45,080 nucleotides of DNA, taken from assembly GCF_000423825.1 (NCBI RefSeq), contig NZ_AUIS01000021.1, positions 1 through 45,080 on the forward strand. Reading direction: 5' to 3'. Positions within the stretch are counted from its first letter, which is position 1, and each line of letters begins with the position of its first letter. The stretch is from Thermithiobacillus tepidarius DSM 3134. GTDB taxonomy: Bacteria > Pseudomonadota > Gammaproteobacteria > Acidithiobacillales > Thermithiobacillaceae. Of the stretch, positions 6,708-45,080 are shown one piece after another. The notes under the pieces are model-generated. The model was not told the DNA's origin. It saw only the letters and a program-made list of their open reading frames with translations, and made no database searches. The position numbers and the translations under genes were made by a program.

Positions 6708-8111
<1,404 letters not shown>

Positions 8112-38542: not shown

Positions 38543-40975
38543 TTACGGCGCCACGCGCGCCAGCGGCTCGGCATGCACGTCCAGGTGGCCCTCGATCGCC
38601 GCGGCCCAGGGGTCCCGTTCCTGAGCCAAGGCAAAATCCAGTGCCTCGGCCAGCCGCCGACGGTTGGTGGGATCATCCACCACCCGCACCTTGATGTGCT
38701 CGAGGCCGACCCGCTCCACCCAGGGGGCGGTACGCTCCAGGTAGTGTGCCTCCTGCCGATAGAGCTGCAGAAAGGCCTTGGTGATCTCGATGGCCTCGGC
38801 GTTGGTCTTCACCTTGCACAGCAGATCCGCGGCCCGAACCTTCATGCCGCCGTTGCCGCCGATATAGATCTCCCAGCCCGAGTCCACGCCGATCACCCCG
38901 ACGTCCTTCACCGTGCTCTCGGCACAGTTGCGCGGGCAGCCCGAGGCGGCGAGCTTGACCTTGTGCGGCGCCCACATGCCCTCCAGGGCGCGTTCGAGTT
39001 CGATGCCCATGCGCGTGCTGTCCTGGGTGCCGAAGCGACAGAACTCGGTGCCGACGCAGGTCTTGACCGTACGCAGCGACTTGCCGTAGGCGTGGCCCGA
39101 GGGCATGCCGAGTGTCGCCCAGATGGCGGGCAGGTCTTCCTTTTTGACGCCCAGCAGATCCAGGCGTTGGCCGCCGGTGAATTTCACCATCGGCACCTGG
39201 AACCGTTCGGCCACCTCGGCGATGCGCCTGAGCTCGGCGGGACTGGTCACGCCGCCGTAGATGCGCGGGACCACGGAATAGGTGCCGTCCTTCTGGATGT
39301 TGGCGTGGGCGCGCTCGTTGATGAAGTGCATCTGCGGGTCGTCCAATCCCTCGGCGGGCCAGGCGGTGCGTACGTAATAGTTGACCGCCGGGCGGCAGGT
39401 GGCGCAGCCGCCGGGATGATTCCAGTTGAGATATTCGAAGACTTGGCGCGCCGACAGCAGCTTCTCCGCCACAATGGCCTCGCGCACCTCGTCGTGGGTC
39501 AAGTCGGTGCAGCCGCACAGCGGTTTTTTCTTCGGCGACTGGTCGTAGACGCCACCGAGTGTGGAGGCCAGCAGCTGCTCCACCAGTCCGGTGCAGGAAC
39601 CGCAGGAGGAGCTGGCCTTGGTCTGCTGGCGGACTTCTTCGAGGGTAAAGAGACCCTGTTCGCGGATAGCCTGCACGATCGTACCCTTGCACACCCCGTT
39701 GCAGCCGCAGATCTCGGCACTGTCGGGCAGGCTCGCCGCCTGATCGTGCCCGGCATGGCCGGCATCGCCCAGATGGGTCTCGCCGAACAACAGATGAGCA
39801 CGAATTTCACCGATATCATGATTTTCGCGCAGCAACTGAAACAGCCAGGGGCCGATGCTGGTGTCGCCATAGAGCACGCTGCCGACTACCTTGTTGTCTT
39901 TGAGGACCACCTTTTTATAGACGCCGTAGGTGCCATCGAGCAGAGTGATTTCCTCGACTTCCGGGCCGCCCGTGAAGTCGCCGGCGGAGAAGAGATCGAT
40001 GCCCGTCACCTTGAGCTTGGTGCTGGTGATCGATCCCTCGTAGCGCATGCGCCCGTATGCGGCGAGGTGATTGGCCGCCACCTTGGCCTGCTCGAAGAGC
40101 GGGGCCACCAGGCCGTAGGTTTGGCCGCGGTGCTGCACGCACTCGCCCACGGCGTAGATCCTGGGATCGTAGGTCTGCATGGTGTCGTTGACGACAATGC
40201 CGCGCTCGCAGTGGATGCCGGCGGCCTTGGCCAGCTCGATGTTGGGCCGGATGCCCACCGCCATGACCACCAGATCCGCCGGGATTTCCTCGCCATCCCG
40301 GAAACGCAGGCCGGTGACATGCGTCTCCCCCAGCACCGCCTCGGTCTGTTTGGGCAGGTAAAAGCGCATGCCGCGCTGCGCCAGGGCTTTTTGCAGCAGC
40401 GCGCCGCCGACTTGATCCAGCTGGCGCTCCATGAGCCAGGGATGCAGATGCACCACACTCACGTCCATGCCGCGACTGAGCAGGCCATTGGCCGCTTCCA
40501 GGCCCAAGAGGCCGCCGCCGATCACCACCGCGCGTCCGCCCTTCGCCGACGCCGCGAGCATCTGCTCCACATCCGAGATATCGCGGTAGGCCACCACACC
40601 CGGCAGGTCCCGACCCGGAATGGGCAGCAGGAAAGGATTGGAGCCGGTCGCGATCAGGAGACGGTCATAGGCAGCCTCGATGCCATCGGCGGCGATCACG
40701 CGGCGCCGTGCCCGGTCGATCTGTACGATTTTTCTGCCCGCCTGCAGGTTGATGCCATGGTCGTGATACCAGTCCCAGTCGTTGAGAATGGTATCCTCCA
40801 GCCGCATCTCGCCAGAGAGCACCGGCGAGAGCAGGATGCGGTTGTAGTTGGGATGGGGCTCGGCACCGAAGACGGTGATCTCGAAAGCCCCGGGCGCCAT
40901 CTTCAGCAGTTCTTCCAGGGTGCGGATGCCGGCCATGCCGTTGCCGATGAGCACCAGTTTCGCTTTGCTTGCCAT
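38543..40975 (-). CDS. nirB: Nitrite reductase (NAD(P)H) large subunit
   Basis: NirB reduces nitrite to ammonium by six electrons at a siroheme-[4Fe-4S] centre. The start at 40975 (MASKAKLVLIGNGMAG) follows GGAGAGGATC and gives 810 residues. Order: FAD domain with GNGMAG (11-16), NAD domain with VVIGGGLLGLEAANGL (about 145-160), BFD-like [2Fe-2S] segments (CGCNGVCKG ... CGSCTG; then CGCTD ... CATCRP), and the sulfite/nitrite reductase half with the siroheme-cluster cysteines in TCVGTEFCRFG (C-x5-C) and GCPRNCAE (C-x3-C). All ligands are present. Its leader holds a sigma-54 promoter and an attenuator. Confidence 0.97.
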   Translation of the reverse strand: MASKAKLVLIGNGMAGIRTLEELLKMAPGAFEITVFGAEPHPNYNRILLSPVLSGEMRLEDTILNDWDWYHDHGINLQAGRKIVQIDRARRRVIAADGIEAAYDRLLIATGSNPFLLPIPGRDLPGVVAYRDISDVEQMLAASAKGGRAVVIGGGLLGLEAANGLLSRGMDVSVVHLHPWLMERQLDQVGGALLQKALAQRGMRFYLPKQTEAVLGETHVTGLRFRDGEEIPADLVVMAVGIRPNIELAKAAGIHCERGIVVNDTMQTYDPRIYAVGECVQHRGQTYGLVAPLFEQAKVAANHLAAYGRMRYEGSITSTKLKVTGIDLFSAGDFTGGPEVEEITLLDGTYGVYKKVVLKDNKVVGSVLYGDTSIGPWLFQLLRENHDIGEIRAHLLFGETHLGDAGHAGHDQAASLPDSAEICGCNGVCKGTIVQAIREQGLFTLEEVRQQTKASSSCGSCTGLVEQLLASTLGGVYDQSPKKKPLCGCTDLTHDEVREAIVAEKLLSARQVFEYLNWNHPGGCATCRPAVNYYVRTAWPAEGLDDPQMHFINERAHANIQKDGTYSVVPRIYGGVTSPAELRRIAEVAERFQVPMVKFTGGQRLDLLGVKKEDLPAIWATLGMPSGHAYGKSLRTVKTCVGTEFCRFGTQDSTRMGIELERALEGMWAPHKVKLAASGCPRNCAESTVKDVGVIGVDSGWEIYIGGNGGMKVRAADLLCKVKTNAEAIEITKAFLQLYRQEAHYLERTAPWVERVGLEHIKVRVVDDPTNRRRLAEALDFALAQERDPWAAAIEGHLDVHAEPLARVAP

Positions 40976-40987
40976 GATCCTCTCCAG

Positions 40988-41032
40988 AATAAAAAGGCGC
41001 CGGCCGATTGGAGCAATCAGCGCGACGCCTTT
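40988..41032 (-). terminator. Attenuator-like terminator in the nirB leader
   Basis: On the minus strand AAAGGCG (41032-41026) pairs with CGCCTTT (40999-40993), with an inner 8-bp stem GCTGATTG/CAATCGGC, and TTTTTATT follows. It ends 13 bases before the nirB ATG and lies downstream of the sigma-54 promoter, so any nirB transcript must pass it. This is the arrangement expected of a NasT-type antitermination target. Confidence 0.75.
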
Positions 41033-41096
41033 GTCGAGTTCATTCGGCTTACCCGCCCGCCGTTGGGTTGGGGTATGGTCCGGTTGCCAAGGGTTT

Positions 41097-41112
41097 TGCA
41101 ATCCTCATGCCA
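41097..41112 (-). promoter_or_regulatory. Sigma-54 promoter of nirBD-nasA
   Basis: On the minus strand TGGCATGAGGATTGCA matches the sigma-54 consensus TGGCACG-N4-TTGCA at all but one conserved base, with GG and GC exactly 10 bases apart. The predicted start is near 41087, about 110 bases upstream of nirB. Confidence 0.75.
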
Positions 41113-41144
41113 AAAGAAAGGGCCGAAACAGGGAGTTCCGGCCC
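41112..41144 (-). terminator. Intrinsic terminator after the Cache-like gene
   Basis: A 10-bp stem (41120-41129 with 41135-41144, one G-T wobble, loop of five) is followed on the minus strand by TTTCTTTT. It ends the nasT-narK-Cache transcript 52 bases past the stop, and its T-run abuts the -24 element of the nirB promoter. Confidence 0.8.
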
Positions 41145-41170: not shown

Positions 41171-41187
41171 TGCGCAAACTTGGTGCA
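41171..41187. promoter_or_regulatory. NtrC-like binding site upstream of nirB
   Basis: TGCGCA-AACTT-GGTGCA has the TGCACC-N5-GGTGCA architecture with two mismatches in one half. It is centred about 92 bases upstream of the predicted sigma-54 start, the usual enhancer distance. A third GGTGCA half-site lies at 41163-41168. Confidence 0.55.
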
Positions 41188-41195
41188 GCTTTCGC

Positions 41196-42149
41196 TCAAT
41201 CCTGCCGATTCCTGCGACGCAGGGAGTCACGTTGGTGCAGCAGCATGATTTCCGCGCGCGCGCCCAGATAGACGTAGACACCCAGGCCGAGCAGCAATCC
41301 GACGACAGCGAAGATCAGCCAAGCCGCTTCGTGCAGGTGATCCGGCTTGTCGATGGCGAACTTGAAGACCAGCATCAACGCTTCGATGGAGATGGCGATC
41401 AGGATGGCGGCAATGAAGCGGGTCAAGGTGCGCCGTGTGGTGCTGTGGCGATGTACATCCTTGTGGATCAGCACCTCTTCTTCGAAGATGGTCTTGGCCA
41501 AATCGAAGATGGCCAGGGCCAAAGTCAGGAGAATCGTGGCCTGAAAAGGGGCCACGTAGCTTGTGACCATGCTGTTGTTGCTCCAGAGCAGGCCGAGCGT
41601 CATGAAACCGTGGTATCCCAGACTCAGGCTGATGATGAACAGGCCGAGAAAAATGGTAGCGTACACGGCCTTGAAGAGCGGCTCAGCCCGCCGCCGGCCT
41701 TGATCACCTTCCAACAGTGCGAGCGCCCGCTTGAAATCCACGTCCGCCACCAGGATGCCCAGGAGATGGTTGTCCCGGTCGCGTACCGGCACAGCGGCGG
41801 TAAGGCAGATTTCGCCGGTGGCCGAGGACAGGTAGGGGGCGGTCAGGGTGCCGCCATTGTCCGGCAAATGCCGGAAGTAGCCACGATAACTGCGGTCCGT
41901 ACCCTTGCCCGCGGTGTTGAGCCGCTTGCCGTGTCGGGGATTGACCACATTGTCGCAGATCTGCCGGCCCTCGCCGTCGAGGGCGTAGCACAGATCGAAG
42001 AAGGGGTACTTGTGGATCAGGCATTTCAGCGTGCGTTCAAGCACGGCGTCGTCAGCAAAAAGTTCGGGTCGCCCGACGCCTTCCAGCAGAGCCACCAGGA
42101 AGGCCGAGAGATCCGGTCGGACCTCGTAATAGCGTTCAAAGGAATTCAT
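41196..42149 (-). CDS. Cache/PDC-like sensor membrane protein in the nitrate operon, function unknown
   Basis: The start at 42149 (MNSFERYYEVRPDLSAFL) gives 317 residues. Residues 1-145 look like a PDC/Cache ligand-binding domain: RSYRGYFRHLP (87-97), YLSSATGEICLTAAVPVRD (107-125), then GILVADVDF. Four membrane helices follow at about 163-179, 203-220, 244-266 and 276-296, ending in a basic tail. No kinase, cyclase, HAMP or methyl-accepting domain is present, and no N-terminal signal precedes the Cache part, so topology is unusual. It lies between narK and nirB, followed by a terminator. A role in sensing nitrate or nitrite is inferred only from position. The 234-bp gap to narK has an unconvincing reading frame of about 31 codons at 42278-42373. 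Confidence 0.8.
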   Translation of the reverse strand: MNSFERYYEVRPDLSAFLVALLEGVGRPELFADDAVLERTLKCLIHKYPFFDLCYALDGEGRQICDNVVNPRHGKRLNTAGKGTDRSYRGYFRHLPDNGGTLTAPYLSSATGEICLTAAVPVRDRDNHLLGILVADVDFKRALALLEGDQGRRRAEPLFKAVYATIFLGLFIISLSLGYHGFMTLGLLWSNNSMVTSYVAPFQATILLTLALAIFDLAKTIFEEEVLIHKDVHRHSTTRRTLTRFIAAILIAISIEALMLVFKFAIDKPDHLHEAAWLIFAVVGLLLGLGVYVYLGARAEIMLLHQRDSLRRRNRQD

Positions 42150-42383
42150 AATGCATAGCGCCTCCGGATGAAAATGGAAAACCCCTTTCAGGGAACGCGC
42201 CCGAGGCGTTTGGTTCCGTGCCCGTCGATGTATGAAAGTGGCCCGCACATCTCCAACACGCAGGTGCCCGCCGTCGCTCAGCAGCGGATTTTCGGGTTGG
42301 AGTCCCGGCGCAGCAATTCCGGTCGATGCAGGGCGTCGACCCCGCTCAGGAGCTGCTTGGCGATGCCTGGCACCTCCAGGCTG

Positions 42384-43589
42384 TCAAACCCGGGCGACTG
42401 TCACCGCGCCCCAGGTGGTGCGCCAGCGCTGCTTGATCGCGGACAAGCCGATCAGGGCCACCGCGGCCAGGACGGCGAACACCAGAAAACCGGCCTGGTA
42501 AGTGCCGGTCCACTGTTTGGACAGGCCTAGACTGGAAGCCAAGTAAAAGCCGCCCACGCCGCCGGCCATGCCCACCAGGCCCGTCATCACGCCGATCTCG
42601 CGTTCGAAGCGCTGCGGCACCAGCTGGAATACCGAACCGTTGCCCATGCCGAGCGCCAACATGGCGACCACGAAAGCCGCCAGCGCCAGCCAGCGGCTGG
42701 GCAGGCCGATGCTGACCAGGGCCAGCATCAATCCCGCGATGATGTACACGAAGCTCAGGGTACGCACGCCGCCGATGCGATCGGCCAGCGCGCCACCCAC
42801 GGGCCGCACCAGGGAACCGGCGAAAACGCAAGCGGCGGTGAAATAGCCGGCCGTCACCGGGTCCAGCCCGTACTGGTCGTTGAAGTAGATGACCAAGCTG
42901 GATGCAAGCCCTACGAAGCCGCCGAAAGTCACGCTGTAAAAGAGCATGAACCACCAGGCGTCCGTGTCCCTGAGCACCGAGAGATACCGCCCCAGGCGTT
43001 GCGGCGCGGGCTTGTTGGGGCTGTCTTGAGCGAGGAGGCTGAACACCAGCAAGGTGATGATCAAGGGGATGGCCGCCAGCCCGAACACGGCATTCCAGCC
43101 GAAAGCTTTGGCCAAGCCCGGCGCGAACAGGCTGGCCAGCACCGTGCCCGAATTGCCCGCCCCGGCGATGCCCAGGGCCGTACCCTGGTACTGCGGCGGA
43201 TACCAGCGCGAGGCCAGGGGCAGGGCCACGGCAAAGCTCGCCCCGGCCACGCCGAGCATGACTCCCAGGGCCAGCACCTGGCTGAAGGTGTGCACGCCCA
43301 GGCCCAAGGCCGCGAGCAATGCCGCAATCACCACCAGTTGCCCGAGCTGGCCGGTACGCTTGGGGCCGATGTGGTCCACCATCAGACCCAGTACCACCCG
43401 CAGCAGTGCGCCGGCCAACACCGGCGTGGCCACCATGAAGCCCTTTTGCGCGGGGCTCAGGCCGAGGTCCCCGGCGATCTGCACCGCCAGGGGCCCGAGC
43501 AGCACCCAGACCATGAAGCTCAGGTCAAAATACAAAAAAGCGGAAAACAGCGTCGGTGCGTGTCCTGCCTTGAAAAATTCGCGGTTCAT
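42384..43589 (-). CDS. narK: Nitrate/nitrite transporter, NarK/NasA family of the MFS
   Basis: The 401-residue protein has about 12 membrane helices and brings nitrate across the inner membrane. The family's nitrate signatures are present: GIAGAGNSGTVLASLFAPG in helix 5 and LVGMAGGVGGFYLASSLG in helix 11, plus ALGMGNGSVFQLVPQRF before it. The start at 43589 (MNREFFKAGHAP) follows GGAGAAAGG; the frame upstream crosses the attenuator hairpin. It is transcribed after nasT, through the leader terminator at 43607-43641. Confidence 0.95.
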   Translation of the reverse strand: MNREFFKAGHAPTLFSAFLYFDLSFMVWVLLGPLAVQIAGDLGLSPAQKGFMVATPVLAGALLRVVLGLMVDHIGPKRTGQLGQLVVIAALLAALGLGVHTFSQVLALGVMLGVAGASFAVALPLASRWYPPQYQGTALGIAGAGNSGTVLASLFAPGLAKAFGWNAVFGLAAIPLIITLLVFSLLAQDSPNKPAPQRLGRYLSVLRDTDAWWFMLFYSVTFGGFVGLASSLVIYFNDQYGLDPVTAGYFTAACVFAGSLVRPVGGALADRIGGVRTLSFVYIIAGLMLALVSIGLPSRWLALAAFVVAMLALGMGNGSVFQLVPQRFEREIGVMTGLVGMAGGVGGFYLASSLGLSKQWTGTYQAGFLVFAVLAAVALIGLSAIKQRWRTTWGAVTVARV

Positions 43590-43606
43590 GGTCCTTTCTC
43601 CCGAAC

Positions 43607-43641
43607 AAAAAAACGCCAATCCGCGCTTGTCGGATTGGCGT
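43607..43641 (-). terminator. Attenuator-like terminator in the narK leader
   Basis: A perfect 11-bp stem (43613-43623 with 43631-43641, loop of seven) is followed on the minus strand by seven T. It stands 17 bases before the narK ATG and 72 after the nasT stop. Upstream leader hairpins lie at 43681-43705 (10-bp arms), 43669-43683 and 43650-43663; I could not confirm the two-hexaloop ANTAR motif in them. Confidence 0.8.
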
Positions 43642-43712
43642 CATTGCCTGTGTGCCCGCACACCATTGCGCAGGCCGCCTGCGGCAGGCCGTCCTGACCT
43701 GCCGCTCGAAAT

Positions 43713-44288
43713 TCAGTTTTTCAATTCCTGGGCGAGGATGACAAGCTCCGCCACCTCCACCAGTCGCTTGCCGCGATCCATGGCCATCCTGCGCATGCGC
43801 TGATAGGCCTCGGACTCGCTGAAACCGTACTCCTGCATCAGGATGCCCTTGGCGCGATCGATGGTTTTGCGTTCGGCGAGTTGATTCTTCGCTTCTTTGA
43901 GCTCGTCGCGCAGGCGCTTGTACTCGGCGAAGCGCGCCGTGGCCACGCGCAGGATCGGCGCCAGATCCTCCGCCTGGATGGCATGGCTGACATAGGCGCT
44001 CACCCCGGCGCGCATGGCCTCGCGGATGCTGTCTTGGTCATCCTGGCCGCCCAGCACCACCACCGGCAGCTCCAGCGCCGCGGACATGGCGCTGATTTGC
44101 TCCAGCATGGCGCGACCCGGGGCATTGCCATCGACGATAACGACATCCGGGTGCAGACGTTGCAGCCGCACGGCATCGATGTCCACCCAGGTGAGCACAT
44201 CCATGACCTCGTAGCCCGCCAGATCCAGACTGGCCTTGAGCCCAGCCGCTCGTTCACGCGCGTCGTCAATGATGAGAATGCGATTCAC
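43713..44288 (-). CDS. nasT: ANTAR-domain response-regulator antiterminator NasT
   Basis: NasT-type proteins bind leader RNA and prevent termination so that nitrate genes are expressed. From the GTG at 44288 (AGGGAG site 6 bases away) the protein has 191 residues: a pseudo-receiver domain (ILIIDDARERA; Asp53 in VIVDGNAPGR), a coiled linker (RLRDELKEAKNQLAERK) and a C-terminal ANTAR domain (IDRAKGILMQEYGFSESEAYQRMRRMA). Partner sensor NasS, normally adjacent, is not found in the window. It is the first gene of the cluster, behind a sigma-54 promoter and an NtrC-like site. Confidence 0.93.
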   Translation of the reverse strand: MNRILIIDDARERAAGLKASLDLAGYEVMDVLTWVDIDAVRLQRLHPDVVIVDGNAPGRAMLEQISAMSAALELPVVVLGGQDDQDSIREAMRAGVSAYVSHAIQAEDLAPILRVATARFAEYKRLRDELKEAKNQLAERKTIDRAKGILMQEYGFSESEAYQRMRRMAMDRGKRLVEVAELVILAQELKN

Positions 44289-44319: not shown

Positions 44320-44335
44320 AGCAAGGAGCGGGCCA
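44320..44335 (-). promoter_or_regulatory. Sigma-54 promoter of nasT-narK
   Basis: On the minus strand TGGCCCGCTCCTTGCT matches TGGCACG-N4-TTGCW except for one base, with GG and GC 10 bases apart. The start near 44310 gives a leader of about 22 bases to the nasT GTG. Confidence 0.75.
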
Positions 44336-44365: not shown

Positions 44366-44382
44366 TGCACCGGCAAGGTGCG
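44366..44382. promoter_or_regulatory. NtrC-binding site upstream of nasT
   Basis: TGCACCGGCAAGGTGCG matches the NtrC consensus TGCACC-N5-GGTGCA at 11 of 12 conserved positions. It is centred about 64 bases upstream of the predicted sigma-54 start. Confidence 0.65.
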
Positions 44383-44680: not shown

Positions 44681-45080
44681 GGGTGACCCGGAAAAGGGCG
44701 GCCGCTTGTGCTATATCTTTATTTAAGCCTCTTTTCAATTTCGAGTGGGTAAGCTGGACCTGAGCAGGTACGGGATCGGGTATGACTGACAAGCTGTTTG
44801 AGGCTGCCTTGGGGGTCTCTCCGCCGTGGCAGGTGACGGGCGCGGACTTCGATTTGGCGGCCAAGACGCTCACCATCCGGGTGGACTTCATCGCCGGCAG
44901 CCGCTTCGCGCTGGCTGGCGTGGAGGGCCAGCATCCGGTTCACGACACCGTCGCCAAGCGTTACCGGCACCTGAACTTCTTCCAGCACGAGTGCTTCCTG
45001 GAAGTGCGTGTCCCCCGGGTAAAGCTGCCCGATGGCAGCGTCCGCCAGGTCGATCCGCCGTGGGCCGGCAAGCTCTCGGG
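44681..45080 (+). mobile_element. Left part of an ISL3-family insertion sequence (right end outside the window)
   Basis: The ISL3-type transposase gene begins at 44782. About 100 bases of AT-richer DNA precede it, starting near GGGTGACCCGGAAAAG (44681), which may be the left terminal repeat. The boundary is tentative because the other end, needed for comparison, is not in the window. Confidence 0.55.
44782..45080 (+). CDS. ISL3-family transposase, N-terminal part, without the zinc-ribbon cysteines
   Basis: The frame is open from ATG 44782 to the window edge (99 residues). It matches the ISL3 N-terminal plan: LFEAALGVSPPWQVTGADFD, VHDTVAKRYRHLNFFQHECF, then VPRVKLPDGSVRQVDPPWA. In usual ISL3 transposases two CPxC-like pairs flank this region; here they read ALAGVEG and KLPDGS, so all four cysteines are missing. 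The catalytic DDE domain would lie beyond the window. It may be a Cys-less subgroup or a decaying copy. Confidence 0.8.
   Translation, partial: MTDKLFEAALGVSPPWQVTGADFDLAAKTLTIRVDFIAGSRFALAGVEGQHPVHDTVAKRYRHLNFFQHECFLEVRVPRVKLPDGSVRQVDPPWAGKLS

Follow-up and report, generated by a model that had tools for sequence, protein, structure and literature searches.

The 45,080-nucleotide contig NZ_AUIS01000021.1 of Thermithiobacillus tepidarius DSM 3134, studied here over its whole length and referred to as the window, carries on its minus strand a nitrate-assimilation cluster in which the antiterminator NasT is present and its NasS/NrtA-type partner is absent. The genome of 2.96 Mb, assembled in 43 contigs at 100% completeness, falls by comparison with its relatives into the order Acidithiobacillales, in a family other than that of Acidithiobacillus. 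The cluster is read from nasT (43713..44288), which encodes a receiver-like domain followed by an ANTAR domain (PF00072, 2.5e-10; PF03861, 3.7e-21), into narK (42384..43589), a nitrate/nitrite transporter of the major facilitator superfamily whose match to TIGR00886 (7.9e-93) lies 0.2 bits below the cut-off. The next gene (41196..42158) encodes a protein of 320 residues that joins a Cache (PDC) domain (dCache_1, 1.3e-9, under the Pfam gathering score) to four membrane helices and that we call Cache-4TM; an intrinsic terminator (41112..41144) lies 3' of it. Beyond the terminator is nirB (38543..40975), the large subunit of assimilatory nitrite reductase and the second apparent NasT target. An initial annotation had described nasT, narK, and the Cache gene as one unit between a sigma-54 promoter and a terminator, and the reading frames, the sigma-54-like site, and the terminator are all there in that order. 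A simple single transcript, however, does not hold, as a second, strong intrinsic terminator that looks like an attenuator (43607..43642) stands between nasT and narK. Nor do narK and the Cache gene meet at a tight junction; a gap of 225 nt containing the relict of a kinase gene separates them.

A scan at the Rfam gathering threshold matched no known leader family, so ANTAR leaders were sought by a search for hexaloop hairpins, two hairpins with A1/G4 hexaloops being the target motif of ANTAR proteins (PMC3369931). The narK leader has such a pair (43637..43676), comprising P1, in which GGCCUGCGC and GUGCGGGC flank the loop AAUGGU (43676-43654), and a smaller P2, in which GGC and GCC enclose AAUGAC and which overlaps the attenuator. 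A second pair lies in the nirB leader (41021..41072), with the loop AACGGC in P1 and a P2 of CUCGAC and GUCGCG around AAAGGC; this P2 is mutually exclusive with an intrinsic terminator (40991..41032). Both genes are thus preceded by two A1..G4 hexaloop hairpins and an overlapping terminator, as expected of NasS-NasT targets. The stem length in the narK leader has a P value of 0.0045 against shuffled sequences, and across the leaders stems as long arise in shuffles with P from 0 to 0.03. In every Acidithiobacillales locus checked, the nirB leader has the P2 hexaloop hairpin, and in the narK leaders of relatives in this order the A1/G4 hexaloops sit on stems of quite different sequence. We also considered the 225-nt gap before the Cache gene as a leader and rejected it: it lacks both an A1..G4 hairpin and a T run, and part of it is kinase relict.

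Both nasT and nirB are preceded by putative nitrogen-control sites. A sigma-54 -24/-12-like site, TGGCCCGCTCCTTGCT, lies 31 nt 5' of nasT (44320..44335) and is kept in the nearest relative, a sister genus (G001), as TGGCCCGATCCTTGCT; another, TGGCATGAGGATTGCA, precedes nirB (41097..41112), and its equivalent in the sister genus scores 11/11. The 45-kb window has only 3 sites with at most one mismatch (chance expectation, 2.0), two of which are the ones just upstream of nasT and nirB. Farther upstream are matches to the NtrC enhancer consensus: CGCACC-TTGCC-GGTGCA (44366..44382, minus strand), a consensus match only, scores 11/12 at 77 nt 5' of nasT, where the corresponding site of the sister genus scores 12/12 and lies at 79 nt, and a 10/12 site upstream of the nirB promoter (41171..41187, no strand assigned) corresponds to an 11/12 site in the sister genus.

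NasT itself is the sole ANTAR protein of the genome. It is 86% identical to NasT of the sister genus, with the receiver and ANTAR halves equally conserved (86 and 87%), and so is under constraint. The family of NasS and NrtA, PF13379, had no match in the whole genome, not even a fragment. A search of the genome with an Acidithiobacillales NasS protein was likewise without a match, and tblastn with 23 NasS/NrtA proteins found nothing above chance that might be a nasS remnant upstream of nasT. The same PF13379 search was positive in 12 of 14 control genomes and 24 of 40 relatives, and within the class the family is present in 67 of the 72 genomes with a NasT. The absence of nasS from beside nasT, pointed out in the initial annotation, therefore extends to the genome as a whole; the loss is real as far as the assembly shows, and it is unusual. 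One could suppose instead that nasS is present in the organism and fell between contigs of the assembly, the simplest location being just past the contig end that lies 5' of nasT. Repeats break contigs, and this contig stops 790 bp upstream of nasT within the zinc-ribbon fragment of an ISL3-type transposase (44782-45078, plus strand). We consider such an escape very unlikely in an assembly this complete that holds no trace of PF13379, the more so as the upstream side shows a transposase and not a nas gene.

Several other arrangements of NasT and PF13379 were seen among the genomes compared. In small genomes that lack PF13379, a NasT-like ANTAR regulator lies directly beside glnK-amtB (L146, L148; G528, G733) or beside urease genes (L145), and nitrate genes are not nearby at any of these three loci. 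In some gammaproteobacterial genomes, a PF13379 protein with a twin-arginine translocation (Tat)-type signal adjoins nasT directly (L160, L161; G713, G445) or, in G001 (L122), lies a few kb away; NasS, expected to be cytoplasmic, may be exported there, or the signal may have been reused. Neither PF13379 protein of G001 was accepted as NasS. One clusters with the Tat-signal proteins found next to nasT elsewhere; the other forms a long branch and is encoded next to ATP-binding cassette transporter genes. Both look exported.

Set against the NasS-NasT antitermination systems of Paracoccus, Azotobacter, Bradyrhizobium, and Pseudomonas, the window is alike in NasT with its receiver-like and ANTAR domains, in the dual-hairpin/terminator leaders, in the nirB-nirD-nitrate reductase-cobA genes served, and in putative initiation through NtrC and sigma-54. 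It differs in that the PF13379 sensor is missing, the kinase gene has decayed, and an unrelated Cache-4TM gene is inserted before nirB. The Acidithiobacillaceae cluster (nasS-narK-porin-nirB-nirD-narB-cobA-nasT) has the same target genes and the same leader architecture as the window, but places a PF13379 protein without a signal peptide at its head and nasT at its end, with the Cache-4TM gene elsewhere. That PF13379 protein has been called nrtA, and its missing permease and ATPase were remarked upon as odd (PMC2607301). Since it has neither a signal peptide nor transporter partners, the lone 'nrtA' of the acidithiobacilli (L118:5366-6520, L119, L121, L123) is most likely nasS.

Comparison with the sister genus suggests how narK and the Cache gene became neighbors. 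There the order is nasT, narK, an intact PP2C-Ser/Thr kinase gene directly after narK (L098:12476-14170; PF00069, 5e-34), a GGDEF protein, and a Tat-signal PF13379 protein. In the window, the start of the gap after narK is a frameshifted relict of this kinase gene, covering its catalytic-loop region (42246..42388, minus strand) and matching the intact gene at 77% over 83 bp of DNA (E 3e-13) and at 52% in protein, in two frames (tblastn 1.8e-5). A PP2C-Ser/Thr kinase gene likewise lies downstream of narK in G032. The order narK-kinase-nirB-nirD-nasA also occurs in Pseudomonas aeruginosa. The gap ends in 60 nt that align with the sequence immediately 5' of the sister-genus Cache gene, which stands after a porin-like C terminus and before nirB. 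Because the gap thus begins as kinase relict and ends as pre-Cache sequence, nasT-narK and Cache-nirB read as two old pairs that the loss of the kinase gene joined in the window genome, leaving a deletion scar. Upstream of nasT in the sister genus (L098:4473-9389) we also noted a Cache-MCP, an EAL protein with a C-terminal Cache-like part, and a PilJ-PAS-GGDEF protein whose PilJ domain resembles the sensor domain of NarX.

To see where Cache-4TM proteins occur, one has to look beyond nitrate assimilation. In Acidithiobacillus, the gene lies between prkA(yeaG)-amtB-yeaH and a transglutaminase/DUF2126 cluster; in related genera it stands beside ntrB-ntrC-glnA, sometimes also with glnK-amtB; and in the Hydrogenothermaceae it is divergent from amtB, mostly with glnK. 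The neighbors across loci are PrkA, DUF444/YeaH, Amt, PII, NtrB, NtrC, GlnA, and DUF2126, and the two genera of the window's family are the only ones in which nirB adjoins the gene. A survey of 398 genomes of the phylum turned up just two further full-length members. A paralog at 74% identity occurs in the window genome; it has its own sigma-54 site and neighbors a sigma-54 activator, at a distance from nitrate genes. Of 30 copies, 25 have an upstream sigma-54 site of at least 9/11, in most cases 31-81 nt from the start, where 0.81 would be expected; many genomes in this count are close relatives, and at least five lineages are represented. Candidate NtrC enhancer sites are sparser, with 6 upstream regions reaching at least 10/12 (0.45 expected) and most loci without a good match. 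In Escherichia coli starved of nitrogen, NtrC binds to and drives the genes for YeaG and YeaH (PMC4664914). On account of these NtrC-driven genes, the Amt, Ntr, and yeaGH neighborhoods, and the sigma-54 sites, the uncharacterized Cache-4TM family probably belongs to the response to nitrogen limitation, and a role in general nitrogen sensing is possible.

The predicted structure of the protein has a mean pLDDT (a per-residue model confidence score) of 82, rising to about 90 over residues 11-70. The model, Foldseek, and structural alignment agree on a PDC fold, the Pfam dCache_1 match falling below its curated cut-off. Residues 2-151 match KinD, CtaA, DctB, and other PDC sensors (Foldseek 8e-7), and the best structural match is KinD (4jgq; VIA Z 15.8, root-mean-square deviation 3.9 over 136 residues). 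The transmembrane helices follow at residues about 161-179, 207-225, 248-266, and 278-296. No transmembrane segment precedes the Cache domain, and hydropathy and charge place both ends of the protein inside, so that this domain is predicted to be cytoplasmic. As the initial annotation had it, there is no output domain: we found no kinase, MCP, GGDEF, or EAL domain, and only the four-helix membrane domain follows. The PDC fold is common to the dCache_1/PDC sensors KinD, CtaA, PctA, and DctB and to the cytoplasmic YkuI_C; the window protein differs from such sensors in having a single, predicted cytoplasmic PDC domain and none of these outputs.

In an alignment of 20 full-length homologs, conservation is strongest in helices 2 and 3 and their connecting loop, and not in the Cache part: FDLAKTIFEEEV..KD..RHS..R.T.TRF.A.I..A..IE.L...FK. 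The Cache part does have a strictly conserved, pocket-like set of residues (D88, R89, R92, Y94, T106, P108, Y109, S111, and D139). By our own alignment, mapped by eye, R92, Y109, and D139 occupy the positions of R126, Y144, and D173 of PctA. We considered amino acid sensing of the dCache_1AA type and rejected it, as only these three equivalents of the PctA motif (Y121, R126, W128, Y129, Y144, D146, and D173) are kept; the positions of Y121 and D146 are among those lost, and the protein carries no known ligand motif. The four-helix domain alone found no Foldseek match below E 0.28 and no Pfam or NCBIfam family, though the lack of a structural match does not demonstrate a new fold. It also occurs as a stand-alone protein in other Proteobacteria (L140-L144), with roughly 150-190 residues and 20-28% identity, the EEE, E, and K residues being kept; these proteins likewise match no Pfam or NCBIfam family.

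The initial annotation had proposed that the Cache protein senses nitrate or nitrite and controls NasT or NarK. In its fullest form, this would mean that Cache-4TM replaced NasS, its pocket binding nitrate or nitrite and NasT being sequestered at the membrane, or NarK gated, until ligand arrives. Several observations speak for it, among them the shared transcript order with nasT and narK, the true absence of NasS, the ligand-binding fold with its conserved residue set, the predicted cytoplasmic position from which the domain could reach NasT, and the adjoining nirB in both genera. The distribution of the family tells otherwise. Its members are mostly unlinked to nitrate genes across genomes, an outcome that the annotation itself had named as refuting its proposal, and sit instead with amt, glnK, ntrBC, and prkA; they occur in Acidithiobacillaceae that possess a NasS and are absent from the four other genomes with a NasT-like protein and no PF13379. 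In the sister genus, the Cache gene is far from nasT, its adjacency to narK in the window being a deletion scar, and no ANTAR leader precedes it. Together with the family's own sigma-54 promoters, these findings contradict the proposal, and we regard replacement of NasS as improbable. A related reading, which we hold to be doubtful, makes Cache-4TM a cytoplasm-facing, membrane-anchored sensor of nitrogen status that would act through the invariant EEEV / KDxxRHSxxRRTLTRF loop on a partner such as AmtB, PII, or NtrB and that was recruited here to nitrate assimilation, possibly controlling NasT or NarK.

What remains in the window is NasT with its dual-hairpin/terminator targets at narK and nirB; the NasS/NrtA-type partner is gone, and of the kinase gene there is only a fragment. 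We favor, with a probability of roughly two in three, the reading that this is a reduced or degenerate nitrate-assimilation cluster in which NasT has no nitrate gate, control passes through nitrogen status by NtrC and sigma-54, and Cache-4TM is separate. Under nitrogen limitation, sigma-54 RNA polymerase with NtrC would initiate the nasT and nirB transcripts; in Pseudomonas stutzeri, nasT depends on NtrC (PMC8443478). NasT, unrestrained, would then bind the hairpins and let polymerase pass both terminators with or without nitrate. We expect it to act without a nitrate gate because disruption of nasS makes nitrate assimilation constitutive in Paracoccus (PMC3795266), and NasT of the window organism is probably constitutively active. 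Nitrate induction would have been exchanged for nitrogen-status control alone. Cache-4TM, for its part, would be a separate, sigma-54-driven family traveling with ammonium-transport and Ntr genes, which had joined the cluster next to nirB by the time the sister genera diverged and was brought in behind nasT-narK in the window genome alone, upon deletion of the kinase gene. The protein probably detects or reacts to nitrogen status, and not nitrate specifically, at the inner membrane face, and contact with NasT would not be required.

The main competing explanation is that nitrate or nitrogen gating persists without NasS, with NasT still regulated by another partner or by direct sensing, for example by nitrogen signals relayed by PII-type proteins or by an unrecognized soluble binding protein. 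Between the sister genera, the receiver and ANTAR halves are conserved to the same degree, and the PF13379-less NasT-like proteins beside glnK-amtB in two small genomes indicate that NasS-free ANTAR regulators linked to nitrogen status exist. On the other hand, narK is the only conserved neighbor of nasT, leaving no candidate partner, and a NIT-domain search of the genome had no match, as was also the case in the control genomes. We think such a controller unlikely.

A number of points weigh against the loss of the nitrate gate and a separate Cache-4TM. If the receiver was kept under constraint after NasS was lost, another partner could still be controlling NasT, and with an assembly of 43 contigs and a window that ends in a transposase fragment 790 bp 5' of nasT, it is unlikely but possible that nasS was missed in a gap. 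The position of the Cache gene next to nirB in both genera is a lineage-specific nitrate link, lacking elsewhere in the Cache-4TM family, and at about a third of the Cache loci no nitrogen gene lies within 7 kb. As the window copy lacks its own sigma-54 site, it relies for expression on read-through from nasT-narK or on a promoter that escaped notice. Finally, the promoter and enhancer assignments are consensus matches throughout, and related genomes are not independent observations. Elsewhere in the window, Rfam places AsdA, the antisense RNA of dnaA, at 7521-7601 (plus strand), barely above threshold; the match probably mirrors conservation of dnaA.

For the acidithiobacilli, the comparison corrects the lone 'nrtA' to a probable nasS. 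It also marks Cache-4TM, an unnamed membrane family common to the Acidithiobacillales and Aquificota, as a probable component of the nitrogen-limitation response. The window cluster would amount to a natural nasS deletion, in which the nitrate gate was removed and the antiterminator and its RNA targets were kept, and it lets one ask whether NasT alone is constitutive or is otherwise controlled.

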